Shown: in pieces, positions 36,432-56,496 of the stretch | Position numbering within the stretch: position 1 is the stretch's first letter | Layout of the letters: every line of letters starts with the position of its first letter | From: Streptomyces antibioticus | GTDB taxonomy: Bacteria > Actinomycetota > Actinomycetes > Streptomycetales > Streptomycetaceae | Assembly (NCBI RefSeq): GCF_001514065.1 | Contig: NZ_KQ948429.1 | Location: forward strand, 496,001-560,000 | Direction of reading: 5' to 3' | DNA: 64,000 nt | Made by a program: the position numbers and the translations under genes | The notes under the pieces: model-generated | The model's input: the letters and a program-made list of their open reading frames with translations, nothing else | What the model was told of the DNA's origin: nothing | Databases searched by the model: none

Positions 36432-37894
36432 TCACGTCACGGCGGTGACCCGCAGGAGCGTGGGGTCGAACGGGGCGCGGCGTGACCGACCGGGCGGAAG
36501 CGGCAGGACGGTCACCGAACGCAGGACGGTGCCGACTGCCGCCCGCCGCTCTTCGAGATTCATCGCGGGCCAGCGTGACGCGTCCCAGCAGGCCGACGCG
36601 TCCCGTCGGCCCCGGCTGTGCTCCTCGCGGGCGGCCTCCAGCCCGGAGATCCGGCCCTCGAGCTCAATTTTCTGCTCCGGCCCAAGAGAATCACGCTTGT
36701 TGATCAAGGACTGGAGCAGCGGGGTCCCGGCCCACTCCGGCTCCTCCTCGTCGGCGACGGGGCGCCGCTCGTCGAGCAGGGCGAGCACGACCTCCTGCAG
36801 GTGGCGATCGACGTCACGGACACTGCGCGCAGTGCCTCCGCAGTCCAGAGCGACGCACACGTACACGGCGTTGGCGGGGTTCTTCGCGGTCGGCCGTGCG
36901 CAACCGCCCATCTTGGAACCGCACACACGGCCGTCTTCGAGCCCCGCTCCCTGGAGAGTCGTACGAGCGCCCCCCACTCCTCGACGGTCGCGGGGGCGTC
37001 CCATTGGCCGACGACCGGTGTGCCGGTGGCGGGGTCACGGACCAGCTCACCGCGGATGGCTCGGTAGCCGCACATCACGGGGTTGACGAGGGCTTGGCGT
37101 ACGGTCGCTCCGCTCCACCGGTTTCCAGAGGCGGTCGGGACGCCCCGGGTGTTGAGTCGCCGGGCGATGGCGTTCCAACTCGTGCCACGCAGTGCGGAGT
37201 CGATCATTTCGCGGAGTACGGGCCATTCCTCGGGATCCCTGCGCATGTTGATCTTCAGCCCGGAGCGAGGGTCGGGTGGCAGCCAGCCGAAGCGTCTGCG
37301 GCCTCCCGGTGTCCCGCCATCGATCGCCCGGCGCCGGACATGGCGCTCGATGCGCTCCTTCGTCCTCCGCACCTCGCCGTCGCTGGTGACGGCGGCCTCG
37401 GCGGTGTGGAGCGAACCGAGATCGAAAACGCTTCGCCGCTCGATGAACAGTCCCTCTTCGGTGACCGTGACGGCCTGGTGGACCCGGGAGAAGTCCGATG
37501 CCAGCCGCCACACGCCTTCGTGCTCCGTGGCGATGAGTGCCTGGACGGGAAAGCCCTCGGCCGTCCTTCGGCAGTGGAGGGCGTCGACCATCTCCATGAA
37601 CGCCGGCCGCACGAGGGCAGGCTGCGCGGCCGTCAGTCCGTTGTCCTCGTAGAACTTGACGACGGCCACGCCGAACACGGCTGCCGTCTCGGTGTTCTCC
37701 TCGTGCTGGTGGCGAACGCCCGTGCCTGGCGCTCGACCCTTGGCCAGGACGGCGGACCGCGTGCTCTGGTCGGCGCTGATCCGGGCGTAGTCCACGGCGG
37801 GTATGCGACCGCCGAGCCATTCCTCGAAGGTGCGTCCGGCCTCCAGGGCCACGACGAGCGAGGGGTCGAGGAAGCTCCTGGACCAGCCGGGCAT
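36432..37894 (-). pseudogene. Serine recombinase relic (frameshift with internal deletion)
   Basis: Reading starts at ATG 37894 (GGAAGGGG upstream): MPGWSRSFLDPSLVVALEAG, catalytic-domain strand VDYARISADQ with the nucleophile-type Ser, then the recombinase domain (PGGRRRFGWLPPD, IARRLNTRGVPTASGNRWSG, VRQALVNPVMCGYRA). After LVRLSRERGSK, near 36935-36950, the frame shifts. The zinc ribbon and C-terminal coiled coil (CGSKMGGCARPT, CVALDCGGTARSVRDVDRHL, LRSVTVLPLPPGR) continue in another frame to the TGA at 36432. The YLLSG-x-L-x-CG segment expected between the two parts is missing, so a deletion caused the shift. This is a decayed integrase of an old mobile element inserted after cbs. Confidence 0.85.
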
Positions 37895-38444
37895 GCGAGC
37901 ACCCCTTCCAGGGTGGATGAAATGTTCGGATGCCTCGAATGGTGCGGCTGGACGGTGTGACGGACGAGTCGATGACCGACTGGTTCCGTACATCGGGTGA
38001 GCGGGCGTCTTCTCGTTGACGGAGTGGTCGGGTTCCGTCGGCTTTCCTTGCCAAGGGCGGGAAGCAGCGGTGAACGTCCGGTGAATCGGCGGGGCGGGCG
38101 GCGAACTTGCGTTTGCCTACCGAATCGGTGGACTTCCCGGAAGTGGTACGAGGGTGTCACGTCCGCGCAGCACTCGCTTAACACGCGTCCGGCACATTAG
38201 TGGGTGTCGGCAGGGCGGGAGCGGCTCCCCGCCCCAGCCGGCACCGAAACGTCCAAGGACCTCCGGAGCGGCTCCCGGACCTCCATGGACGCCGGACGTG
38301 AGACCTGGCCCTGACCCGGTCGACGTCCCTCGCGGGGACCGCCGTCGTCCCGCCCCCCGGTAACGGGGGTGCGGCGGTCCCCGCGACATATCTTTTTGCG
38401 GGCCTTCTCCGCTACATCCTTTGCATCCTTGTCCGCGGGGCCCC
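37895..38444. other. 550-base region without a convincing gene, between recombinase relic and regulator gene
   Basis: Short ORFs here lack ribosome sites and recognisable products. The region holds the promoter side of the recombinase relic and a large hairpin at 38330-38386. It may include remnants of the inserted element or an attachment-site end; no matching direct repeat with 36381-36431 was found by eye. Confidence 0.5.
38330..38386. terminator. Long hairpin TCGCGGGGACCGCC ... GGCGGTCCCCGCGA
   Basis: 14-bp perfect outer stem (38330-38343 with 38373-38386) enclosing an inner CCCCC/GGGGG stem, followed on the plus strand by CATATCTTTTT. It sits 59 bases past the stop of the minus-strand regulator gene. 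It could terminate that gene or plus-strand transcription coming through the insertion. Confidence 0.65.
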
Positions 38445-40782: not shown

Positions 40783-41715
40783 TCACTTCGTCAGCCCGTG
40801 CTGCTTCGCATACGCGTTCGCCACGTCCTCCGGGTCCTTCTTGTCGTTGTCGACCTGGCTGTTGAGCTGGGTGAGCTGGTCCGTGGTCAGGACGTTGCCG
40901 AGCCGGGCGAGGGCCTTGCGGACCTTGTCGTCGGCCTTGCGGTCGGCGATGAGCGGGACGATGTGCTGGCTGGGGATCAGGTTCTTCGGGTCGGTCAGCA
41001 CGACCCAGTCGTTGCCGGCGATGTCGGTGTCGGTGGTGAAGAGGTTCGCCACGTCCACGTCGCCCTTCTTCAGGGCGCCCTTGACGAGCGGGCCGTCCGA
41101 GTCCAGTGACTTGAACTCCTTGAACTCCACGCCGTAGACGTCCTTCAGGCCGATCGCACCCACCCGGCGCTTCTTGACCTCGGGCGCGGCGCCGATGACC
41201 AGCTTGCCGTTCTGCTTCGCCAGGTCGGCGAGGGAGGTCAGTCCGTACTTCCGGGCCGTCTCGCGGGTGACCACGAAGCAGTCGGAGTCGGCGGCCTGGC
41301 CGTACGGCAGGACCTGGAGGCCGCCGGGCATCGCCAGCGTGAGCGCGTTCTGCATGGTGCCGGGCTCCGCCGCATCGTCCTTCGGGGCCAGGTAGTTGAG
41401 GAGGGCGCCCTGGTATTCGGGGAGCAGGTCGATGTCGCCGCTCCGGAGGGCGGGGATGACGATCTCCCGGGTGCCGAGGTTCGGGCGGACCTTCACCTTC
41501 ACTCCGGCCTGCTGGAGCACGGCCGCGTAGAGGTAGCCGAGGACCTGGTTCTCGGTGAAGTTGGCGGTGCCGATGGTGACTCCGCCCTTGCTGGAGCCGC
41601 CGCCACCGGAGGCGGAGCCCTGGCTGTCGAGGGAGGTGATGCCGCTCGCGCAGGCGGAGAGGGCGGGGACGGAGGCGGCGGCGAAGAGGCCGCCGAGGAG
41701 CGTGCGTCGGTTCAT
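40783..41715 (-). CDS. OpuC/ProX-type quaternary-amine substrate-binding lipoprotein
   Basis: 310 residues. Tat-like/lipoprotein signal MNRRTLLGGLFAAASVPA with lipobox LSAC. The OpuAC/OsmX fold shows TIGTANFTENQVLGYLYAAV, LGTREIVIPALRSGDIDLLP followed by EYQGALLNYL, VVTRETARKYGLTSLADLA and IVPLIADRKADDKVRKAL. The family binds betaines (glycine betaine, choline, carnitine; related proteins bind ergothioneine) in an aromatic cage. It is the last gene of a four-gene importer operon (ATPase, two permeases, binding protein). Confidence 0.92.
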   Translation of the reverse strand: MNRRTLLGGLFAAASVPALSACASGITSLDSQGSASGGGGSSKGGVTIGTANFTENQVLGYLYAAVLQQAGVKVKVRPNLGTREIVIPALRSGDIDLLPEYQGALLNYLAPKDDAAEPGTMQNALTLAMPGGLQVLPYGQAADSDCFVVTRETARKYGLTSLADLAKQNGKLVIGAAPEVKKRRVGAIGLKDVYGVEFKEFKSLDSDGPLVKGALKKGDVDVANLFTTDTDIAGNDWVVLTDPKNLIPSQHIVPLIADRKADDKVRKALARLGNVLTTDQLTQLNSQVDNDKKDPEDVANAYAKQHGLTK

Positions 41716-41725
41716 CGGAGAGTCC

Positions 41726-42388
41726 CTAGGCGGTGCGGTGGCGGAAGAGGAAGCGCTGGAGGCCGGACAGGGCGAGGTCCAGGGTCACGGCGATGACGGC
41801 GACCAGCACCGCGCCGCCCAGCACCTGGACGAGGTCGCGCTGGGCGAGGCCGTCGAAGACGTAGCGTCCGAGGCCGCCGAAGGAGACGTACGCGGCGATC
41901 GTGGCCGTCGCGACGACCTGGATCAGCGCGAGACGCAGGCCCGTCATGATCAGGGGGAGCGCGAGCGGCAGTTCGACCTGGAACAGCACCTGGTGGCCGC
42001 GCATGCCCTGGCCGCGGGCGGCGTCCTTCACGTCCGGGTCGACGGCCGTCATCCCGGCGTAGGTGTTGGTGACGATCGCCGGGACCGCGAGGGCGACCAG
42101 GGCGACGTACACCGGCAGCATCGACAGCCCGCCGGCCAGGAAGACGAGGACGACCAGGCCGACGGTCGGCAGCGCGCGCCCGAAGGAGGCGAGGTTGATC
42201 GCGATGAACGCGCCCTTGCCGGTGTGGCCGATGAGCAGGCCGATCGGGAGGCCGATGGCGGCGGCGACGAGGGTCGCGAGGAGCGAGTACTGGAGGTGCT
42301 CGGCGAGGCGGTGGGCGATGCCGTCCGTGCCGGTCCAGCTGGAGCCGCTGGTCAGCCAGGTGCCGAGGTTCTTGATGAGCTCGTACAT
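41726..42388 (-). CDS. Betaine-type ABC importer permease (OpuCB/OpuCD-like), second
   Basis: 220 residues, ATG 42388, two bases downstream of the previous permease stop. Multiple TM helices with the BPD-transport EAA loop, here DAARGQGMRGHQVLFQVELP followed by LALPLIMTGLRLALIQVVAT. The N-terminus LAEHLQYSLLATLVAAAIGL is typical of osmoprotectant permeases. Forms the membrane pore with the other permease. Confidence 0.92.
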   Translation of the reverse strand: MYELIKNLGTWLTSGSSWTGTDGIAHRLAEHLQYSLLATLVAAAIGLPIGLLIGHTGKGAFIAINLASFGRALPTVGLVVLVFLAGGLSMLPVYVALVALAVPAIVTNTYAGMTAVDPDVKDAARGQGMRGHQVLFQVELPLALPLIMTGLRLALIQVVATATIAAYVSFGGLGRYVFDGLAQRDLVQVLGGAVLVAVIAVTLDLALSGLQRFLFRHRTA

Positions 42389-42390
42389 GT

Positions 42391-43032
42391 CTAGGCCCGC
42401 CTCCTCTTCCAGGGGGTGAGGACGTACTGGAGGGCGACGAGGGCCGCGTCCGCGACGACCGCGAGCAGGATCGTGAGGACCACGCCCGCGATCACCGGGG
42501 TCGGGAAGTCGCGCTGGAAGCCGTCGGTGAAGAGCTGGCCGAGGCCGCCGTCGCCGATGTAGGTGGCGACGGACACGAGCGAGATCGACATGACCGTGGC
42601 GATCCGGACGCCCGCCATGATCACGGGGAGCGCGAGCGGGAACTCGACGGTGAGCAGCGTCCGCAGCGGGCGCGTGCCCATCGCCTTCGCCGCCTCCTTG
42701 GTCTTCGCGGGGACCGAGTCGAGGCCCTCGACGGTGTTCCGCAGCAGCACGACCAGGGTGTAGACGGTCAGGCCGATGACCGTGGTGGTGCGGGTCAGGC
42801 CGCTGATCGGCAGCAGGAGCACGAAGATCGCGATCGACGGGATCGTGAACAGGATGTTGGAGACGCCGAGCAGGAAGCCGCGCAGCGGGCGGATCCGGTG
42901 AGCGACGACCGCGAGGGGCAGGGAGATCAGGACGCCGAAGAAGACGGCGGACAGGGCTGCCTGGAGGTGGGAGACCGTCAGGGTGGTGAGGTCGTCGGTG
43001 TGGTCGCCGATCCACGACCAGTCGATGGTCAT
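42391..43032 (-). CDS. Betaine-type ABC importer permease (OpuCB/OpuCD-like), first
   Basis: 213 residues; ATG 43032 overlaps the ATPase stop by four bases. TVSHLQAALSAVFFGVLISL, LRGFLLGVSNILFTIPSIAI, and EAA loop KEAAKAMGTRPLRTLLTVEF followed by PLALPVIMAGVRIATV, with the C-terminal SVATYIGDGGLGQLFTDGFQ. Homologous to the other permease of the operon. Confidence 0.92.
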   Translation of the reverse strand: MTIDWSWIGDHTDDLTTLTVSHLQAALSAVFFGVLISLPLAVVAHRIRPLRGFLLGVSNILFTIPSIAIFVLLLPISGLTRTTTVIGLTVYTLVVLLRNTVEGLDSVPAKTKEAAKAMGTRPLRTLLTVEFPLALPVIMAGVRIATVMSISLVSVATYIGDGGLGQLFTDGFQRDFPTPVIAGVVLTILLAVVADAALVALQYVLTPWKRRRA

Positions 43033-44063
43033 GCGGCCACCCGCGCTTCGCTGTGCGCCTGGCCGGCGTGGGTGTGGATGTCGTCGCGCGAGGAGACGCC
43101 GGTGAGGACGCCCGCCGCGTCGACGCGGGCTATCAGGCCGGTGGGGGAGGCGATCGACTCGTTGAGCGCGGACAGCAGGGAATCGTTGTCGGTCAGTGGC
43201 CGTACGGGGATCTCGGCGTCCGGCGAGGCCCAGTGGAGGGGCTTGTGCGCCGCGTCGAGGACGAGGGACCAGGTCCCGCCCTCCGGTGCCGGGCCCTGCG
43301 GAACCTCCGCCAGGGTCCTGAGCGAGAGCAGCTTCAGCCCGCGCTCGGCGCCGAGGAAGTCGGCCACGAAGTCGTCGGCGGGCCGGGCCAGGAGCTCGGC
43401 GGGGGAGGCGCACTGCACCAGGTGGCCGCCGGTGCGGAAGATCGCGATCTGGTCGCCGAGCCGGACGGCCTCGTCGACGTCGTGGGTGACGAAGACGATG
43501 GTCTTGTTCAACTCCTTCTGGAGCCGGAGCAGTTCGTCCTGGAGCTGGGTGCGCACCACCGGGTCGACCGCGCCGAACGGCTCGTCCATGAGGAGCACCG
43601 GCGGGTCGGCGGCGAGCGCGCGGGCCACGCCGACGCGCTGCTGCTGGCCGCCGGAGAGCTGGTGGGGGTAGCGCTTGCCGGCCTCGGCGGTGAGGCCGAC
43701 GGTCTCCAGCAGCTCGGCCGCGCGGGACCGTGCCTTGCGCCGGCCGTGGCCCAGCAGCAGCGGCACGGTGGCGATGTTGTCGAGCACCGTGCGGTGCGGG
43801 AAGAGGCCGGCCTGCTGGATGACGTACCCGATGGAGCGGCGCAGTTCGGCCGCGTCCTGCCGAGTGATGTCCTTGCCGCCGACCTCGATGGTGCCGGAGG
43901 TCGGCTCCACCATCCGGTTGATCATTCTGAGGGTGGTCGTCTTGCCGCAACCGGAGGATCCGACGAGGACCGTCACGCCGCCCTCGGGGATCTCCAGGGA
44001 GAGATCGTGGACTGCTGTCGTGCCGTTGGGGAAGCGCTTGTGGACCGCATCGAACTGGATCAT
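43029..44063 (-). CDS. Betaine-type ABC importer ATPase (ProV/OpuCA-like) with CBS-like tail
   Basis: 344 residues. Walker A VGSSGCGKTTTLRMINR, Q-loop YVIQQAGLFPHRTV, signature LSGGQQQRVGVARAL, Walker B VLLMDEPFGAVDP, and switch VTHDVDEAVRLGD. The C-terminal region (about 250-340: LPRTLAEV-like, IPVRPLTDNDSLLSALNESI, GLIARVDAAGVLTGVSSRDD) is CBS-like, as in OpuCA, where it senses ionic strength or nucleotides. First gene of the operon; divergent from the lyase gene at 44206. Confidence 0.93.
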   Translation of the reverse strand: MIQFDAVHKRFPNGTTAVHDLSLEIPEGGVTVLVGSSGCGKTTTLRMINRMVEPTSGTIEVGGKDITRQDAAELRRSIGYVIQQAGLFPHRTVLDNIATVPLLLGHGRRKARSRAAELLETVGLTAEAGKRYPHQLSGGQQQRVGVARALAADPPVLLMDEPFGAVDPVVRTQLQDELLRLQKELNKTIVFVTHDVDEAVRLGDQIAIFRTGGHLVQCASPAELLARPADDFVADFLGAERGLKLLSLRTLAEVPQGPAPEGGTWSLVLDAAHKPLHWASPDAEIPVRPLTDNDSLLSALNESIASPTGLIARVDAAGVLTGVSSRDDIHTHAGQAHSEARVAA

Positions 44064-44110
44064 GAGATGTCCCTTGCCCGGCTGTATAACGTCATGCAGA
44101 GTTCTCTGTG

Positions 44111-44119
44111 TGTGAATAG
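44111..44119. promoter_or_regulatory. TGTGAATAG motif shared with the hutU promoter
   Basis: TGTGAATAG lies in the divergent region between the importer operon and the MIO-less lyase gene. The same nonamer occurs at 51007-51015 within the right arm of the hutU operator palindrome. Upstream of it here is CTCT (44104-44107), but the full inverted repeat is not conserved. Confidence 0.35.
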
Positions 44120-44205
44120 GTTGTCAACGGGTTGATGTAAATCCGAAGTAACGGATGACCGCCAGGCAAGATCAGGTGTCCGAGTTGAGGGGAGTTTGGG
44201 GCCTT

Positions 44206-45711
44206 ATGTCGTCTCGGATCGTGGACGCGGCCGCTTCTGTGCACACCGGGCTGGTCGTCCTCGACGGGATCGGACTCGGCATCTCCGACGTCGTCCGGCT
44301 CGCCGACGGGGCCGCACGGCCCGTGCCCGGGACCGATGCGATGAAGCGGGTGTCCACATCGTGGGACGCCGCCCGGCAGATCGCCGCGACCGGTCGCGTC
44401 TACGGCCGCTCCACCGGCGTCGGCGCCAACCGGAACGAGCCGGTGCCCACGGAGGCGGCCGCCGAGCACGGCCTCAGACTCCTGCGCAGCCACGCCGGCG
44501 CCATCGGCGAGGAACTGCCCGCCCGGCAGGTGCGCGCGATGCTCGCCGTACGGGCGAACCAGCTGCTCGCGGGCGGCGCGGGGCTGCGGCCCACCGTCGT
44601 CACCGCGCTGTGCGAGGCCCTGGAGAGCGGGGCGTACCCGGTCGTCCACGAGTTCGGGTCGGTCGGCACCGGGGACATCGCGGCCCTCGCCCAGGCCGGC
44701 CTCGCGCTGGCCGGGGAGCACCCCTGGAAGGGCGTCGGCCCCGAGCCGCAGCCCCTCGACAACAACGACGCCCTCGCCTTCATCAGCAGCAACGCCCTCA
44801 CCCTCGGCCAGGCCGCGCTCGCCCTCGACGAGCTGCGCGGACTGCTGGAGGCCACCCAGGTGGTCGGCGCGCTGTCACTGCTCGCGGTGGACGGCTCCCA
44901 CGAGGCGTACGCCGCCCCCGTGCACGCCGCCCGGCCGCACCGGGGCAGCAGCGAAGTCGCCCGCCGGATGCGGGAGCTGATCGGCGCGGACGAACGGCCC
45001 ACGCCACCCCTCGGCCGTATCCAGGACCCGTACGGCTTCCGCTGCCTGCCGCAGATCCACGGCCCGGCGCACGACGCCGCCGACGCCCTCGAAGCGGTCC
45101 TCGCCGTCGAGATCAACGCCGCCGCCGAGAACCCGCTCATCAGCCCCGAGGACATGGCCGCCTACCACCACGGCGGCTTCTACCAGGCCCAACTCGCCCT
45201 CGCCCTGGACCACTTCAGGCTGGCCCTGACCCAGGTGGCGCGGCTGTCGACATCCCGGCTGTCCACCCTCAACGAGCCCGCCTACACCCGCCTGCGCCCC
45301 TTCCTCGCCGACCACGAGCCCGCCTCCTCCGGCGTGATGATCCTGGAGTACGCCGCCGGCGCCGCCCTCGGCGATCTGCGCGCCTTCTCGGCTCCCGCCT
45401 CGCTCGGTCACGCTGTACTCTCCCGGGGCGTCGAGGAACAGGCCAGCTTCGCCTCGCTCGCCGCCCGGCAGACCCTGCGGGCGTGCGGGGCGTACCGGCT
45501 CGTCGTCGGCTGCGAACTCGTCGCCGCCGTACGGGCGCTGCGTCAGCGCGACCACGGCCCCGACCCGGCGCTGCCGGTGGGGCGGGCGCTGGAGCTTGCC
45601 TTCGCGGTGCTCGACGAGGACCAGGCCGACCGGCCGCTCACGGGCGACGTGACGACGGCGGCCGCACTGCTCGACCGGTTCACGGACATCTGGAGGGGGA
45701 GCGAGGCATGA
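44206..45711 (+). CDS. Histidine/aromatic ammonia-lyase family protein lacking the MIO Ala-Ser-Gly
   Basis: 501 residues from ATG 44206; ATG 44155 (518 residues) is possible but adds a non-conserved extension. The fold is that of HutH/PAL: VYGRSTGVGANR with the catalytic-type Tyr66, LPARQVRAMLAVRANQLLAG, PLDNNDALAFISSNALTLGQ, RIQDPYGFRCLPQIHGPAHD, and VEINAAAENPLI. The loop that forms the MIO cofactor in true lyases, GSVGASGDLAPLAH, reads GSVGTGDIAALAQ (residues 151-163): Ala-Ser is replaced by one Thr. It therefore cannot make MIO and should not be a normal histidase. Ergothionase, as I recall, is an MIO-free member that eliminates trimethylamine from a histidine betaine. Coupled to an RpiR regulator and divergent from a betaine importer. 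Confidence 0.85.
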   Translation: MSSRIVDAAASVHTGLVVLDGIGLGISDVVRLADGAARPVPGTDAMKRVSTSWDAARQIAATGRVYGRSTGVGANRNEPVPTEAAAEHGLRLLRSHAGAIGEELPARQVRAMLAVRANQLLAGGAGLRPTVVTALCEALESGAYPVVHEFGSVGTGDIAALAQAGLALAGEHPWKGVGPEPQPLDNNDALAFISSNALTLGQAALALDELRGLLEATQVVGALSLLAVDGSHEAYAAPVHAARPHRGSSEVARRMRELIGADERPTPPLGRIQDPYGFRCLPQIHGPAHDAADALEAVLAVEINAAAENPLISPEDMAAYHHGGFYQAQLALALDHFRLALTQVARLSTSRLSTLNEPAYTRLRPFLADHEPASSGVMILEYAAGAALGDLRAFSAPASLGHAVLSRGVEEQASFASLAARQTLRACGAYRLVVGCELVAAVRALRQRDHGPDPALPVGRALELAFAVLDEDQADRPLTGDVTTAAALLDRFTDIWRGSEA

Positions 45712-46565
45712 GCGACATGGGTGTGACGGACACACCGGCGGCACGGCTCCAGGCGCTCTTCGAGGGGCACCGGCTCACGCCGACCCAGCGGCGCATCGCG
45801 CACAGCATGGTGCGGCGCGCCGCCGACGTGCCGTTCCTGTCCAGCGTCGAGCTCGCCGAGCTCGCCGGGGTGAGCCAGCCGTCCGTGACCCGCTTCGCGG
45901 TCGCCCTCGGCTTCGACGGCTACCCGGCCCTGCGCCGCCACCTGCGCGAGGTCGCGCCCGCCGAACGGCAGCGGTCGGCGGACTCGTCGTCGTACAACGA
46001 GTACCAGCAGGCCGTCGAGGCCGAGATCGCCAACCTCCGGCACCTCGCCGAGGTGCTCGCCGACCCGCGGCCCGTGCAGCGCGCGGGCCGGGTGCTGGCC
46101 GCCTCCCGGCCGCTGCCGGTACTGGGCCTGCGGGCCGCCGCCTCGCAGGCCTACGGCTTCGCCTACTTCGCCGCCAAGGTCCATCCGGACGTCCGGCTGC
46201 TGCACGAGGGCGGCACGATGGTCCACGACCGGATCGACGCCGCCGTCCGCGCGGGCGCCACGGCGCTGCTCTGCTTCGCGCTGCCCCGGCATCCCCGGGA
46301 GGTCCTGGACACGCTCGGCTACGCCAAGGAGGCCGGGCTGTCCGTCGTCACCGTCGCCGACTCCGCCTTCGCGCCGGTCGCCAAGGTCTCCGACCTGCTG
46401 CTGCCCGCCGCCGTCGGCACCGGGCTCGCCTTCGACACCGCGTGCGCGCCGATGCTGCTCGGGCGGGTGCTCCTGGAGGCCATGGCCGACGAACTCCCGG
46501 ACGCGCAGGCACGGCTGGAGGAGTTCGACGCGAAGGCGGCGGCGCGGGGGCTGTTCGTGGAGTAG
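45708..46565 (+). CDS. MurR/RpiR family transcriptional regulator
   Basis: 285 residues from ATG 45708, overlapping the lyase stop by four bases. N-terminal RpiR HTH at about 15-90 (LTPTQRRIAHSMVRRAADVP, SVELAELAGVSQPSVTRFAV). The C-terminal SIS domain spans about 125-260 (VLGLRAAASQAYGFAYFAAK, ATALLCFALPRHPREVLDTL, GLSVVTVADSAFAPVAKVSD). SIS domains bind phosphosugars or related ligands, though RpiR members also control amino-acid and histidine catabolism. Translational coupling to the lyase suggests it regulates this locus, and possibly the divergent importer. Confidence 0.92.
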   Translation: MSDMGVTDTPAARLQALFEGHRLTPTQRRIAHSMVRRAADVPFLSSVELAELAGVSQPSVTRFAVALGFDGYPALRRHLREVAPAERQRSADSSSYNEYQQAVEAEIANLRHLAEVLADPRPVQRAGRVLAASRPLPVLGLRAAASQAYGFAYFAAKVHPDVRLLHEGGTMVHDRIDAAVRAGATALLCFALPRHPREVLDTLGYAKEAGLSVVTVADSAFAPVAKVSDLLLPAAVGTGLAFDTACAPMLLGRVLLEAMADELPDAQARLEEFDAKAAARGLFVE

Positions 46566-49532: not shown

Positions 49533-50930
49533 TCAAGGGCGTGCGGTCGTCCCGAGGGTGGTGAGCGCGGCGGCGTGCGCCCCTCCCGACTCGGCCACGA
49601 TCTCGTCGAGCGTCTGCGGGGTGCGGACGGTCGCGAAGGCGACACCGCCGCCCCCGTCCGGCGCGAACCCGTAGACGCCGGGCCGCGCCAGGGAGTTGTA
49701 GGCGTAGTGGTGGGCGAAGTAGTACGCGCCCGTGTCCAGCGCCGCCGCGTAGTCGCCCTGTTCGAGCAGCGGCAGCGCCCTCGCCTCGGCGAGCAGGTCG
49801 CCCGAGAAGCAGGCCGGCCCGGCGATGTCCTGCACCACGTCGGCCCCCGCCTTCGGCCGCCCCTTCCCGTCGTACGCGGCGATCCTGAGCGGCCACGACC
49901 CCGGCACGTACACCGTCCGCGTCGCCACCTGCACACCCGCGTGCGTCACCGCGACCGGCCGCCCGCCCGCGCTCTTGGCGTACTCCACCCGCGCCACGAT
50001 CGTGCCGTGCTTGGCCAGCAGCGACCGCCCGAACTCGGTCACCAGCCCGTACCGCCCGTCGAACAGCCCCGGCACCGCCTCGCTCAGCAGCCGCGCGTAC
50101 TGCGCGTACGTCGGCGCCGTCGCGTCCGAGCCGAAGTTCACCGGCAGTCCGCCGCCGATGTCGACGGTGTCGATCTGCGGGCGCCCGATGTGCCGGTTGA
50201 TCTCCTCGGCGAGCGCGTACGTCTCCGCGACCCCCTGCGCCATCAGGGACAGCGGGATGCCCTGGGAGCCGGTGTGCGCGTGCAGCCGGTTCAGCCAGGG
50301 CCGGTCGGCGTAGGCGCGCACGACCCACTCCCGGGCGCCCGGGTCGCGCAGCGCCACCCCGAACTTCGAGGTCGCCGTCGCCGTCGAGGTCGCCCCGATG
50401 GAACCGCCGCCGATCTGCGGATTCACCCGTATCCCGAGCGGCGAGCGACTCGGTCCGGACCGCATCAGGGCGTCGATGCGGTCCAGCTCCTGCGGGTTGT
50501 CGGCGTTGACGGCGATCCCGAGGGCGAGGGCCTCCCGCAGCTCGGCCGGTGTCTTCGCGGGCGAGTCCAGCACCGTCTGCTGCGGGGTGAGCCCCGCCGC
50601 CCGCGCCAGCGCCAGCTCGCCCGGGCTCGCCACCTCCGCGCCGATCCCGGCCTCCCGCAGCAGCCGCAGCACCGGCACCAGCGGGGTCGCCTTCACGGCG
50701 AAGGCGTGCAGCACCGGGGTGCCGGGCGCGGTGACGGCGTCGAACGCGGCCCGCAGCTCGGCCGCCGACTCCCGGATGCCGGTGACGTCGAGCAGGCCGA
50801 CGATCGGGGCGTCCGGACCCAGCAGCCCCTGCTCCACCGCGGCCCGCACCGCCTCGTCCCGCCGGACCGCGCGATCCCCTTGCCGTTCGATGCCAACGCC
50901 GTCCCCCGTCAGGTCGTTGTCTGCGCCCAT
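49533..50930 (-). CDS. PLP-dependent DapDC/ODC-type decarboxylase
   Basis: 465 residues from ATG 50930 (start uncertain; weak ribosome site). Fold III PLP enzyme: VLHAFAVKATPLVPVLRLLR with the PLP-Lys, GAEVASPGELALARAAGL, VNADNPQELDRIDAL, LHAHTGSQG, glycine-rich phosphate loop VDIGGGLPVNFG, VTEFGRSLLAKHGTIVARVE, then GPACFSGDLL and YYFAHHYAYNSLARPGVYGF. Related to diaminopimelate decarboxylase (LysA) but diverged; the real lysA is normally next to hom-thrC in Streptomyces. Substrate uncertain: meso-DAP, ornithine or an amino-acid derivative. Divergent from hutU. Confidence 0.85.
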   Translation of the reverse strand: MGADNDLTGDGVGIERQGDRAVRRDEAVRAAVEQGLLGPDAPIVGLLDVTGIRESAAELRAAFDAVTAPGTPVLHAFAVKATPLVPVLRLLREAGIGAEVASPGELALARAAGLTPQQTVLDSPAKTPAELREALALGIAVNADNPQELDRIDALMRSGPSRSPLGIRVNPQIGGGSIGATSTATATSKFGVALRDPGAREWVVRAYADRPWLNRLHAHTGSQGIPLSLMAQGVAETYALAEEINRHIGRPQIDTVDIGGGLPVNFGSDATAPTYAQYARLLSEAVPGLFDGRYGLVTEFGRSLLAKHGTIVARVEYAKSAGGRPVAVTHAGVQVATRTVYVPGSWPLRIAAYDGKGRPKAGADVVQDIAGPACFSGDLLAEARALPLLEQGDYAAALDTGAYYFAHHYAYNSLARPGVYGFAPDGGGGVAFATVRTPQTLDEIVAESGGAHAAALTTLGTTARP

Positions 50931-50978
50931 GCATCCAGCCAAACATCCACGGCGCGCCCGCGCTGACGGACCGTCCTA

Positions 50979-51045: not shown

Positions 51046-52710
51046 ATGTCAGGACCCCGCCCCGTCCGAGCGTCGCGCGGTACGGAACTGAGTGCCCTGG
51101 GATGGCAGCAGGAAGCCGCCCTGCGGATGCTCCAGAACAACCTCGACCCCGAGGTCGCCGAGCACCCCGACAAGCTCGTCGTCTACGGCGGCACCGGCAA
51201 GGCCGCCCGCGACTGGCGCTCCTTCGACGCGATGGTCCGCACGCTGCGCACCCTCAAGCAGGACGAGACCATGCTGGTCCAGTCCGGCCGCCCCGTCGGC
51301 GTCATGCAGACCCACGAGTGGGCCCCGCGCGTCCTCATCGCCAACTCCAACCTGGTCGGCGACTGGGCGAACTGGGAGGAGTTCCGCCGCCTGGAGGCCC
51401 TCGGCCTGACCATGTACGGCCAGATGACCGCCGGCTCCTGGATCTACATCGGCACCCAGGGCATCCTCCAGGGCACCTACGAGACCTTCGCCGCCGTCGC
51501 CGCGAAGAAGTTCGGCGGCACCCTCGCCGGGACGATCACCCTCACCGCCGGCCTCGGCGGCATGGGCGGCGCCCAGCCCCTCGCGGTCACCATGAACGAC
51601 GGCGTCGCGATCTGTATCGACGTGGACCCCCGCGCCATCGAGCGCCGCATCGAGCACCGCTACCTCGACGTCAGGGCCGACAACCTCGCCCACGCGCTCC
51701 AGCTCGCCACCGAGGCCCGCGACGCCCGCCGGCCGCTCTCCATCGGCCTCCTCGGCAACGCCGCCGAGCTGCTTCCGCAGATGCTCGCCGAGGGCGCCCC
51801 CATCGACATCGTCACCGACCAGACCTCGGCCCACGACCCGCTGGCCTACCTGCCGGTCGGTGTCGCCTTCGAGGACATGGCCGACGCGGCGGCGAAGGAC
51901 CCGGCCGGATTCACCACCCGCTCCCGCGAGTCCATGGCCAAGCACGTCGAGGCCATGGTCGGCTTCATGGACGCCGGCGCGGAGGTCTTCGACTACGGCA
52001 ACTCCATCCGCGGCGAGGCCCAGCTCGCGGGCTACGACCGCGCGTTCGCCTTCCCCGGCTTCGTCCCCGCCTACATCCGCCCCCTCTTCTGCGAGGGCAA
52101 GGGCCCCTTCCGCTGGGCCGCCCTGTCCGGTGAGGCGTCCGACATCGCCAAGACCGACAAGGCGATCCTCGACCTGTTCCCCGAGAACGAGTCCCTGCAC
52201 CGCTGGATCAAGATGGCCGGCGAACGCGTCCACTTCCAGGGCCTGCCCGCCCGGATCTGCTGGCTCGGCTACGGCGAGCGCGACAAGGCCGGCGAGCGCT
52301 TCAACGACATGGTCGCGAGCGGGGAGCTGGCCGCGCCGCTCGCCATCGGCCGCGACCACCTCGACTGCGGCTCCGTCGCCTCCCCGTACCGCGAGACCGA
52401 GGCCATGCTCGACGGCTCCGACGCGATCGCCGACTGGCCGCTGCTCAACGCCATGGTGAACGTCGCCTCCGGCGCCTCCTGGGTCTCCCTCCACCACGGC
52501 GGCGGCGTCGGCATGGGCCGCTCCATCCACGCCGGCCAGGTCACCGTCGCCGACGGCACGAAGCTCGCCGGCGAGAAGGTCCGCCGCGTCCTCACCAACG
52601 ACCCCGGCATGGGCGTCATCCGGCACGTGGACGCGGGTTACGACATCGCGGACTCGGTCGCCGACGAGCGGGGCGTGCGGGTCCCGATGCGCGAGGGTGA
52701 CCCGGCGTGA
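51046..52710 (+). CDS. hutU: Urocanate hydratase
   Basis: 554 residues, ATG with AGGAGG upstream. Converts urocanate to imidazolonepropionate with tightly bound NAD. Visible: [80 protein letters not shown] (NAD-binding glycines), [20 protein letters not shown]-like [29 protein letters not shown] and [18 protein letters not shown] with the active-site Cys region. Standard length. First gene of the hutU-M20-hutF-hutI cluster. Confidence 0.97.
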
Positions 52711-53954
52711 CGCAGACGTCCCAGGGCAGCTCGTTCCACGCCATGTGGCGCGAGCTGCTCCCCATCGGCCGCCACCCCGACTCCCACGGCTACCGCCGCT
52801 TCGCCTGGACCGGCGCCGACACCGAATGCCGGGCCTGGTTCCAGGAGCAGGCCGAGGCGCGGGGGATGAGCTACGAGCTCGATCGGAACGGGAACCAGTG
52901 GGCCTGGCTCGGGGACCCGGCCGCCGGGGACGCCGTCGTCACCGGGTCGCATCTGGACTCCGTGCCCGACGGCGGGGCCTTCGACGGGCCGCTCGGCGTC
53001 GTGTCGTCCTTCGCCGCGCTCGATGAACTGCGGGCCCGGCGGACGGAGTTCACCAAGCCCCTCGCCATCGTCAACTTCGGCGACGAGGAAGGCGCCCGCT
53101 TCGGGCTCGCCTGCGTCGGCTCACGGCTCGCCTCCGGGCAGCTCACCGTCGAGCAGGCGCACCGGCTGACCGACGGCGAGGGGATCAGCCTGCCCCGGGC
53201 CATGGAGGCCGCCGGCTACGACCCCGACGCCATCGGGGCCGACCACGAACGGCTCGGCCGCATCGGCGCCTTCGTCGAACTGCACGTCGAGCAGGGCCGC
53301 GCGCTGGACCTGTCCGGCGACCGCGTCGGCATCGCCAGCGCCATCTGGCCGCACGGCCGCTGGCGCTTCGACTTCCGGGGCGAGGCCAACCACGCAGGCA
53401 CCACCCGTCTCGTCGACCGGCACGACCCGATGCTGTCGTACGCCGAGACCGTCCTCGCCGCCCGCCGCGAGGCCGAACTCGCCGGTGCCGTCGCCACCTT
53501 CGGCAAGATCTCCGTCGAACCCAACGGCGTCAACGCGATCCCCTCCCTCGTGCGCGGCTGGCTCGACTCCCGCGCCGCCGACCAGGCGAGCCTGGACCAG
53601 GTGGTCGGCGGGATCGAGAAGGCCGCCCGCGAGTACGCCGACGCCCACGGCATCGCCCTCGACATCGTCCGGGAGTCCTTCACCCCCGTCGTCGAGTTCG
53701 ACCACGCCCTGCGCGACGAACTCGCCCGGATCCTGGGCAAGGAGGCCAAGGACACGGACTTCACCGTCCCCGTCCTCGGCACCGGTGCCGGACACGACGC
53801 CGGAATCCTGTCCGGGACGATCCCGACCGCCATGCTGTTCGTACGCAACCCCACCGGCGTCTCGCACTCCCCGGCCGAGTTCGCGACCGAGGACGACTGC
53901 GTGGCCGGGGTGCTCGCCCTCGCCGACGTACTGGAAGGACTGGCCACCTCGTGA
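52707..53954 (+). CDS. M20 amidohydrolase (allantoate amidohydrolase/N-carbamoyl-amino-acid hydrolase family), candidate N-formylglutamate deformylase
   Basis: 415 residues, GTG overlapping the hutU stop by four bases. Metal ligands of the family are present: [51 protein letters not shown], and the C-terminal [13 protein letters not shown]; the dimerisation domain contains [20 protein letters not shown]. It is normally annotated as allantoate amidohydrolase. Its place between hutU and hutF, coupled at both ends, suggests it removes the formyl group from N-formylglutamate, the HutF product, since no HutG-type enzyme is in the cluster (inference). Confidence 0.88.
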
Positions 53955-55282
53955 CGACGTACTGGCTGGAGCACGCCTGGCTCGACACCCACGTCGAGCC
54001 GGGCGTCGCCGTCGAGGTCGCGGACGGCCGGATCACCGCCGTCCGCACGGACGTGCCCACCCCGCCCCCCGGCGCCGAGATCCTGCGCGGTCTCACGCTC
54101 CCGGGGCTGGCGAACGCCCACTCGCACGCCTTCCACCGCGCCCTGCGCGGCACCGTCCAGGTCGGCTCGGGCACCTTCTGGACCTGGCGCGAGGTCATGT
54201 ACGCCACCGCCGACCGGCTGACCCCGGAGAGCTACCACGCCCTCGCCCGGGCCGTGTACGCGGAGATGGCGCTGGCCGGCGTCACCTCCGTCGGCGAGTT
54301 CCACTACCTGCACCACGCCCCCGGCGGCACCCCCTACGCCAACCCCAACGCCATGGGCGAGGCGCTGATCGCGGCCGCCGCCGACGCCGGCATCCGCATC
54401 ACCCTCCTCGACACCGCCTATCTCTCCGCCGGCTTCGGGCAGCCCCCCAACACCCACCAGCTCCGCTTCTCCGACGGCACCGCCGAGGCCTGGGCCGAAC
54501 GCTGTGCACTTCTCAAGGAACGGGATCACGCGCGGATCGGGGCCGCGGTCCACTCCGTACGGGCCGTGCCCGCGGGCCAGTTGGCGACCGTGGCCGCATG
54601 GGCCGAGGAGCGGCGGGCCCCGCTGCACGTCCACCTGTCCGAGCAGACCGCGGAGAACGACGCCTGCCACCAGGCCCACGGGCGCACGCCCACCCAGCTC
54701 CTCGCCGACCACGGCGTCCTCGGCCGCCGCACCACCGGCGTCCACAACACCCACCTCACCGACGAGGACATCGCCCTCCTCGGCGGCAGCGGCACCGGCA
54801 CCTGCATGTGCCCGACGACGGAGCGGGACCTCGCCGACGGCATCGGACCCGCCGTCGCCCTCCAGCGGGCCGGCTCCCCGCTCTCCCTCGGCTCCGACAG
54901 CCACGCCGTCATCGACCTGCTCGAAGAGGCCCGCGCGATGGAGCTGAACGAGCGGCTGCGCACCCGCACCCGCGGCCACTGGACGGCGGCGGCGCTGCTG
55001 CGGGCCGCCTCCGCCGACGGCCACGCGGCCCTCGGCTGGGACGAGGCGGGCACCATCGAGCCCGGCGCCCTCGCCGACTTCACGACGATCGCGCTCGACT
55101 CGGTCAGGACAGCGGGCCCGCTGCCCCGGCTGGGCGCCGAGACGGCCGTATTCGCGGCGACGGCAGCGGACGTACGGCACACGGTCGTGGGCGGCCGGCA
55201 GGTCGTGCGCGACGGGGCGCACACGCTCGTACCGGATGTGCCGCAAGCGCTCGCGCGGGCCGTCGACGCCCTCCGCGGCTGA
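53951..55282 (+). CDS. hutF: Formimidoylglutamate deiminase
   Basis: 443 residues, GTG overlapping the previous stop by four bases. Amidohydrolase superfamily: [20 protein letters not shown] with the metal Hx[79 protein letters not shown], and the metal Asp in [20 protein letters not shown]. It converts N-formimidoyl-glutamate to N-formylglutamate plus ammonia, the histidine route used by Streptomyces. Confidence 0.95.
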
Positions 55283-55323: not shown

Positions 55324-56496
55324 ATGAGCAGCACCGTCATCACCAACATCGCCGCGCTCGTCACCAACGACCCCTCCCTCGGTGACCGCTCCCCCCTCGG
55401 TCTGATCCAGGACGCGGCAGTCGTCATCGACGGCGACCACGTCGCGTGGACCGGTGAATCAAGCAAAGCACCCGCCACTGACAACCGGGTCGACGCCGGA
55501 GGACGGGCCGTCCTGCCCGGCTTCGTGGACTCCCACTCCCACCTCGTCTTCGCGGGCGACCGCACCCAGGAGTTCAACGCCCGCATGTCGGGCCGCTCCT
55601 ACACCGCGGGCGGCATCCGCACGACGGTCGCCGCGACGCGCGCCGCGAGCGACGAGGACCTCGAAGCGAACCTCACCCGCTATCTCGCCGAGGCCCTCCG
55701 CCAGGGCACGACGACCTTCGAGACGAAGTCCGGCTACGGCCTCACGGTCGAGGACGAGTCCCGCGCCCTGCGCATCGCCGCCGCCCACACCGACGAGGTC
55801 ACCTACCTCGGCGCGCACATCGTGTCCCCGGACTTCGCCGACGACCCGGCGGCGTACGTCGCCCTCGTCACCGGCGAGATGCTCGACGCCTGTGCCCCGT
55901 ACGCCCGCTGGATCGACGTCTTCTGCGAGAAGGGCGCCTTCGACGGCGACCAGGCCCGCGCGATCCTCACCGCAGGCAAGGCCAAGGGCCTGCACCCGCG
56001 CATCCACGCCAACCAGCTCTCCTACGGCCCCGGCGTGCAGCTGGCCGTCGAGCTCGACGCCGCCAGCGCCGACCACTGCACCCACCTCACGGACGCCGAC
56101 GTCGACGCCCTCGCGAACGGCGACACCGTCGCCACGCTGCTGCCCGGTGCCGAGTTCTCCACCCGGGCGGAGTGGCCGGACGCCCGCCGCCTCCTCGACG
56201 CCGGCGTCACCGTGGCCCTGTCCACGGACTGCAACCCGGGCTCGTCCTTCACCTCGTCCGTCCCGTTCTGCATCGCGCTGGCCGTGCGGGACATGGGCAT
56301 GACCCCGGACGAGGCGGTCTGGTCGGCCACGGCGGGCGGCGCGGCGGCCCTGCGCCGCACGGACATCGGCAGGATCACCCCGGGCGCCCGGGCGGACCTC
56401 ACCCTCCTCGACGCCCCGAGCCACGTCCACCTGGCCTACCGGCCGGGGGTGCCGCTGGTCAGCGGGGTGTGGCGGAAGGGCGTACGGCAGGTCTGA
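55324..56496 (+). CDS. hutI: Imidazolonepropionase
   Basis: 390 residues from ATG 55324 (AAGGA 10 bases upstream). Amidohydrolase with [120 protein letters not shown] and [20 protein letters not shown]. Hydrolyses imidazolonepropionate to formimidoylglutamate. It closes the hut cluster, 41 bases after hutF. No hutH is in the window. Confidence 0.96.

Follow-up and report, generated by a model that had tools for sequence, protein, structure and literature searches.

The window analysed here, 64,000 nt of the Streptomyces antibioticus genome (assembly GCF_001514065.1, contig NZ_KQ948429.1, positions 496,001 to 560,000), contains a four-gene importer divergent from a gene of the histidase (HutH)/phenylalanine ammonia-lyase family, the product of which is predicted to lack the 4-methylideneimidazole-5-one (MIO) cofactor. 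The lyase open reading frame (ORF) spans 44155–45711 (+) with a likely start at 44206, and a four-base ATGA overlap joins its 3′ end to the gene for an RpiR-type regulator. This arrangement, noted in the original prediction, was confirmed by the ORFs and Pfam matches. For the RpiR protein the helix-turn-helix match (HTH_6) was over its cut-off, and the SIS effector domain had no Pfam match at E 0.001. A palindrome in the divergent promoter region, CTGTATAACGTCATGCAG, is a candidate operator. Gene content, motifs, conserved residues, synteny, family scores and palindrome distribution were computed for this module, which is real and recurrent. Its most plausible function is to take up hercynine and eliminate trimethylamine from it, feeding the hut pathway, by an enzyme that would be ergothionase-like but outside the ergothionase clade.

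Residues of the lyase were numbered as in the Pseudomonas putida histidase and checked on PDB 1gkm. Conservation was counted in 140 rows differing over sites 53–416, 18 of them from outside Streptomyces, after leaving out proteins outside 430–600 residues, 3/177 missing key sites and duplicates over sites 53–416. Compared with GSVGASGD in the P. putida histidase, the window loop (GSVG-TGD) is one residue shorter, with a gap and Thr-Gly for Ala-Ser-Gly. The codons read GSVGTGD as had been claimed, and the motif recurs across the 140 rows; residue 142 is a gap in 140/140 and Thr143 is present in 139/140, so the loop change is not a sequencing slip. Position 195, Asn in histidase, is Ser in 139/140 rows. 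The histidase state is retained at Tyr53 (139/140), Ser82 (138/140), His83 (139/140), Gln277 (140/140), Arg283 (140/140), Met382 (135/140, with Leu in 5), Glu414 (140/140) and Tyr or Phe280 (138/140), pocket residues that presumably have their histidase roles in catalysis and in holding the imidazole and carboxylate. As judged from the alignment, the MIO machinery is lost in the lyase clade while the residues predicted to hold imidazole and carboxylate persist. An AlphaFold2 model of the lyase (alignment of 37 close sequences) had a mean predicted local distance difference test score of 48, too poor for use.

The lyase shares PF00221, the imidazole and carboxylate residues and HutU linkage with HutH of P. 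putida and with the canonical HutH (L001) that is one of the three PF00221 genes in its own genome. Unlike HutH, it has no Ala-Ser-Gly or Cys-Ser-Gly, has lost Asn195 and scores far under the curated hutH cut-off (284.2 bits against 539.15); a plain histidase was ruled out on the lost MIO residues. It matches histidine ammonia-lyase and related models alone, far below their cut-offs. A phenylalanine/tyrosine-type lyase was also ruled out, on the retention of the Ser-His pair that we take as a histidase-type sign. The loss of MIO and the canonical HutH elsewhere in the genome would fit a histidase paralogue that is a relic or has a regulatory role, with little or no lyase activity, but this is very improbable given the pocket residues retained in nearly all 140 rows and the recurring link to importer and hut genes described below.

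The ergothionase of Treponema denticola (PDB 6s7j/6s7q) is, like the window lyase, a member of the histidase family with the same one-residue shortening of the loop (SSIG-EGD), and hence no MIO, and with Ser195-x-Asn-Ala, His83, Arg283 and Glu414. PMC13405746 describes ergothionase as lacking MIO and as firmly identified in few bacteria. Unlike ergothionase, the window lyase type has Tyr rather than Lys386, Met rather than Gly382, mostly Tyr or Phe rather than Leu280 and mostly Tyr or His rather than Glu330. Position 386 is Lys in 0/140 rows (Tyr 138, His 1, Ile 1), the clade reading Glu385-Tyr386, and Lys in five of the six ergothionase-clade rows, which have Leu280 (6/6), Glu or Asp330 (6/6) and Gly or Thr382 (5/6). 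This Lys, at T. denticola chain residue 383, is presumably the catalytic Lys384 of ergothionase. Distant members of the window type (L209–L211) share Met382, Glu385 and Tyr386, with an Ile-Gly loop and Leu280 in L209 and Val280 in L210 as exceptions. The original prediction had proposed alignment with T. denticola ergothionase and HutH, and had named the absence of ergothionase-conserved residues as a sign against its proposal; the shortened loop proved to be shared and the ergothionase-clade Lys to be absent, which argues against ergothionase membership and not against trimethylamine elimination.

In a first tree of 59 rows, from which the second piece of L049 and the histidase relative of L187 had been left out beforehand, the 41 rows of the window lyase type formed their own clade on a long stem, with support of 100/100; a second clade (100/100) held T. 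denticola ergothionase and five proteobacterial plasmid proteins, and true HutH formed a third (100/99). When distant loci were added in a second tree, L209–L211 fell at the base of the window lyase clade, the join of L211 being weak (67/91), and rooting on HutH grouped every MIO-less protein apart from HutH (99/97). Our placement of the second lyase types in these trees is unsure. On this sequence evidence, the window lyase belongs to a histidase-family branch of its own, one that has apparently not been characterised, and is not ergothionase proper. Lyase matches were found at E 1e-56 in 32 of 394 genomes of the class, one of which (L178) was a histidase, and at E 1e-58 in 12 of 296 genomes of the phylum, one of which (L212) was of another MIO-less type.

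Synteny was surveyed in 150 Streptomyces genomes; a binding protein of G125, 44% identical, was dropped before counting. Among the matches listed, the lyase was present at 68% identity or above in 55/150. A binding-protein orthologue (at least 66%) was found in 43 genomes, with the lyase 2.5–3.6 kb away in 43/43, and 12 lyase-bearing genomes were without it; as these genomes share ancestry, the Fisher value from this survey is not a fair probability. HutU and lyase were on one contig in 47 of the 54 Streptomyces genomes with both positions, and within 22 kb in 44/47. Outside Streptomyces, 21 loci were compared (L160, L162, L164–L177, L179, L180 and L209–L211), some of the stretches ending at contig ends; L178 (histidase type) and L212 (second-lyase type) were dropped. 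The importer adjoins the lyase in 14/21, and HutU is in the examined stretch in 8/21, from six genera. On an Arthrobacter plasmid (L162), ATPase, permeases, binding protein, HutU and lyase lie on a single strand. L211, from outside the window's class, has a single-strand cluster of RpiR, a symporter-like gene, HutH, ATPase, two permeases, binding protein, lyase, amidase, HutU, HutF and HutI, the heading RpiR being 52% identical to that of the window. The proposed links of the lyase to a quaternary-ammonium-type importer, recurring across genera, and to the urocanate pathway, recurring also in the L211 cluster, were thus both upheld. Two loci, both from one genus, also have egtD, egtB and egtA, the genes of hercynine and ergothioneine synthesis, next to the lyase.

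The hut genes that the original prediction placed 5 kb away are present, hutU starting ~5.3 kb downstream of the lyase at 51046, and the M20-family amidase between hutU and hutF had been missed (Table 1). The window hutU, hutF and hutI all pass curated NCBIfam cut-offs. The M20 amidase is over the cut-off of a model named allantoate amidohydrolase (NF006770), and scores 278.3 bits with the ErtE model, under the cut-off of 520. The set matches a hut pathway with the HutF branch, and unlike the standard pathway would have an extra entry through the MIO-less lyase and importer.

Table 1. Features of the lyase/importer module and the downstream hut genes, in window positions
Feature	Position	Strand	Evidence
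Substrate-binding lipoprotein, OpuAC/ProX family	40783..41715	-	PF04069 178.6 bits; nearest PDB 1sw1 ProX, 4z7e Lmo1422, EgtUC
Importer permease 1	41726..42388	-	PF00528; best NCBIfam models choline/betaine permease, below their cut-offs
Importer permease 2	42391..43032	-	PF00528; best models ProW/choline permease, below their cut-offs
Importer ATPase, ProV type	43029..44063	-	TIGR01186 proV 310 bits, cut-off 326.6
Palindrome, candidate operator, divergent promoter region	44082..44099	strandless	Motif counts and conservation
MIO-less histidase-family lyase, proposed hercynine trimethylamine-lyase	44206..45711	+	PF00221 385 bits; residue tables; trees
GSVGTGD, at the site of the MIO loop (ASG in histidase)	44656..44676	+	Alignment to 1gkm and ergothionase 6s7j
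ISSNA, Ser at the site of histidase Asn195	44782..44796	+	Residue tables, 1gkm numbering
RpiR-type regulator	45708..46565	+	PF01418 (HTH_6) 42.7 bits; helix-turn-helix the only recognised part
HutU, urocanate hydratase	51046..52710	+	TIGR01228 901.6 bits, cut-off 375; thiourocanate hydratase model 645.7, cut-off 930
M20-family amidase, presumed last step to glutamate (role inferred)	52707..53954	+	PF01546; NF006770 654.7, cut-off 372
HutF, formimidoylglutamate deiminase	53951..55282	+	NF006681 720.7 bits, cut-off 362
HutI, imidazolonepropionase	55324..56496	+	TIGR01224 363 bits, cut-off 298

NCBIfam distinguishes urocanate, thiourocanate and S-methylthiourocanate hydratases by individual models, and HutU type was compared between the two lyase clades. 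The three HutU proteins scanned for the window lyase type (window, L162 and L211) pass the urocanate-hydratase cut-off and fall short of the thiourocanate-hydratase cut-off, unlike the HutU relatives beside ergothionase-clade lyases, which are thiourocanate hydratases in two of the three scanned (L184 and L186, both 1046). A thiourocanate route through the window HutU was ruled out by these cut-offs. The product delivered by the window lyase is most likely urocanate, as predicted from the type of its HutU, and an unsulfurated histidine betaine, presumably hercynine, would therefore be needed as substrate. The original prediction had left the choice between hercynine and ergothioneine; hercynine is favoured, because HutU types as a urocanate hydratase, the lyase has no ergothionase-clade Lys and the histidase pocket is kept, and ergothioneine is less supported.

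From these results we infer the substrate, the chemistry, the transported compound and the regulator that binds the palindrome. The lyase is probably a MIO-independent trimethylamine-lyase that turns hercynine (Nα-trimethylhistidine) into urocanate. Hercynine would enter through the OpuC-type importer and be held in the histidase-like pocket, where removal of the β-proton would release trimethylamine; MIO would not be needed because a quaternary ammonium group departs readily by itself. Urocanate would then be converted to glutamate by HutU, HutI and HutF, with the M20 amidase as the probable last enzyme, and the RpiR protein, probably via the palindrome, would switch importer and lyase together. 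Hercynine is the precursor of ergothioneine, for which breakdown routes have already been published; among the titles and abstract starts listed in literature searches, none named a hercynine lyase or another catabolic enzyme for hercynine, which is not proof of absence. If correct, this function would explain a protein class that matches histidine ammonia-lyase-type models alone and far under cut-off, add a source of trimethylamine in soil and provide a comparison set for cofactor loss in MIO enzymes where departure of the leaving group is already easy.

Several observations weigh against hercynine as the substrate or against the module as a unit. HutU type alone does not fix the substrate, because on a Paracoccus saliphilus plasmid (L183) the neighbour of an ergothionase-clade lyase is a urocanate hydratase (hutU 943, thiourocanate 676). 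HutU is more than 2 Mb from the lyase in 3/47 Streptomyces genomes, and its closeness in this genus may reflect gene order passed down from an ancestor. The importer is absent beside the lyase in 7/21 loci outside Streptomyces, and L211 is a single case, the lyase having been found in 1/39 genomes of its order at E 1e-90. Searches for the palindrome gave no match at lyase promoters of other genera or ahead of the window hutU. Two of the four cage aromatics of the window binding protein are gone (Tyr111 to Asp, Tyr214 to Gln), as is Lys13, with Tyr63 kept and Tyr190 replaced by Phe, and all 22 lyase-linked binding proteins covering the site, the window's included, have Asp111 and Phe190 and neither Lys13 nor Tyr214. 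A triad of LacI, TIM-type hydrolase and cysteine-dioxygenase-like genes beside the lyase in 9/21 non-Streptomyces loci (L160, L164, L165, L168, L171, L174, L175, L179 and L180) and in Streptomyces loci L039–L041 hints at sulfur, and hence at ergothioneine upstream or as the substrate.

In L183 the lyase immediately follows an intact hut cluster of the conventional kind (hutF, hutI, hutH, hutG and hutU; L183:5060–13599), and an ornithine-cyclodeaminase-family gene is ~9 kb from the lyase; it is a guess that its product removes sulfur first.

The triad may convert a sulfur-bearing histidine betaine. Its presence beside many relatives, together with the one-residue-shorter loop and Ser-x-Asn-Ala common to both enzymes, would suit an ergothionase that splits ergothioneine into trimethylamine and thiourocanate, the latter desulfurised by other genes. 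We consider this unlikely, as the two lyases fall into separate clades, the ergothionase-clade Lys occurs in 0/140 rows, the neighbouring HutU is below the thiourocanate-hydratase cut-off, and the cysteine-dioxygenase-like gene had no match in the window, its only relatives in the genome being proteins 33% and 41% identical encoded elsewhere. That such a protein makes hercynine from ergothioneine is a lead only. L210 has a cysteine-dioxygenase-like match (35%) without the rest of the triad.

The importer resembles EgtU, ProX and OpuC systems in its four-gene architecture, and its binding protein was compared with the AfProX cage (aromatics Tyr63, Tyr111, Tyr190 and Tyr214, plus Lys13). The window protein has Ala13, Tyr63, Ala66, Ala107, Asp109, Asp111, Glu145, Arg149, Phe190 and Gln214; ProX Tyr63, Asp109, Glu145 and Arg149 are kept, with Phe at 190, and unlike ProX it has lost Tyr111, Tyr214 and Lys13. 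Among the 22 lyase-linked proteins, from which four incomplete rows were left out, Gln or Glu214 is present in 21 and Asp109 in 20. The cage is retained in the distant relative L211 (Lys13, Tyr63, Thr66, Tyr111, Phe190 and Tyr214), and the likely glycine-betaine binding protein of the window's own genome (L193) has Lys13, Tyr63, Tyr111, Phe190 and Tyr214. PMC9732360 gives Gly244, Phe293 and Glu375 as the signature of the EgtU ergothioneine importer; the window protein has Phe and Tyr for Gly244 and Phe293 and keeps Glu375. A cage-less ProX protein that failed to bind betaine, choline or carnitine is described in PMC5894108, which calls for caution over the window importer. The trimethylammonium binding that the original prediction expected from OpuC family membership was thus not borne out in the window protein, only L211 keeping the cage; with two cage aromatics and Lys13 lost and the EgtU signs Gly244 and Phe293 absent, hercynine is no more than a candidate ligand of the window importer. 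An altered-type binding protein elsewhere in the genome (L196) had no lyase match within its 20 kb stretch.

The altered binding site, with Asp111 in 22/22 and Asp109 in 20/22 and two cage aromatics and Lys13 lost, could be read together with the retained imidazole pocket of the lyase as recognition, through the two aspartates, of another histidine derivative, for example dimethyl- or otherwise α-substituted, from which a different leaving group is expelled. This is improbable, since in L211 a lyase of identical signature goes with a binding protein that has the ProX-type cage, and amines that leave less readily are difficult to eliminate in the absence of MIO.

With up to three mismatches, the palindrome had one match in the window against 0.03 expected, and CTGYAT-N6-ATRCAG was present in 45/45 aligned Streptomyces lyase intergenic regions (45 distinct of 116 extracted). 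With up to two mismatches the palindrome occurred at three places in the genome, equal to the backward control (3), one of the two other copies being at the divergent promoter of a second lyase/importer module. The looser pattern CTGYAT-N6-ATRCAG, picked after the second-module copy was known, occurred at three places in 10.1 Mb against one for the backward control; these were both lyase/importer promoters and a site upstream of a PatB-like C-S lyase. The distribution points to shared control of both lyase/importer modules through the predicted operator. The third copy (L216:1501–2914, C12:38664 of the same genome) precedes a PatB-like protein that is under its model's cut-off, and may either belong to the same regulon or be fortuitous.

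The second module (L181:1763–16923, contig C1) encodes a MIO-less lyase (L002) with the loop GSIG-ASD and Lys at 386, neighboured by an OpuC importer, an ornithine-cyclodeaminase-family protein and a TIM-type ‘VDVHQHLW’ hydrolase for which Pfam gave no match (E 0.01). Nearby genes resemble an N-methylglutamate methylamine route (type III GlnA over cut-off, Glu_synthase, GXGXG and DAO). Three proteobacterial plasmid loci have cyclodeaminase-family proteins 66–68% identical to that of the second module within ~9 kb of MIO-less lyases, and sulfate-exporter-type genes in two of the three. Such cyclodeaminase-family and exporter loci we link to the ergothioneine sulfonate pathway, to the plasmid-borne form of which Yan et al. 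2022 is reportedly tied. As this second locus, with its 66–68% identical cyclodeaminase neighbour, shares its promoter palindrome with the window lyase, the latter might itself act on ergothioneine sulfonate or sulfinate; this is highly unlikely, as the second module stands apart with a lyase of its own, and its cyclodeaminase-family protein had no match in the window (no search was made for a sulfite exporter). Returning to hercynine as substrate, we regard as evenly poised the broader proposal that Actinobacteria hold a separate MIO-less branch of hercynine trimethylamine-lyases, a second entry to hut, for a betaine, that is coregulated here through the palindrome with a second histidine-betaine lyase module, in a small regulon scavenging the fungal and bacterial ergothioneine family.

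Further MIO-less arrangements were observed in other genomes. Two kinds of MIO-less lyase lie side by side, adjoining hutU, in L175:8618–19985 and L210:9184–19999. On a Rhizobium lusitanum plasmid (L187:2539 onward), a histidase relative with GSVGYLIAT for the MIO loop adjoins an OpuC importer, and the region has an additional MIO-less lyase with its own importer.

Within the window, a pyridoxal phosphate-dependent decarboxylase of the Orn/DAP/Arg type lies between RpiR and hutU (49533–50942, -), and has the same position in nine other Streptomyces loci (L034–L036, L038–L041, L050 and L051). At 36432–37993 (-), overlapping ORFs resemble pieces of a serine recombinase, apparently mutually out of frame as judged from the ORF list only, and adjoin a cystathionine β-synthase-like gene.

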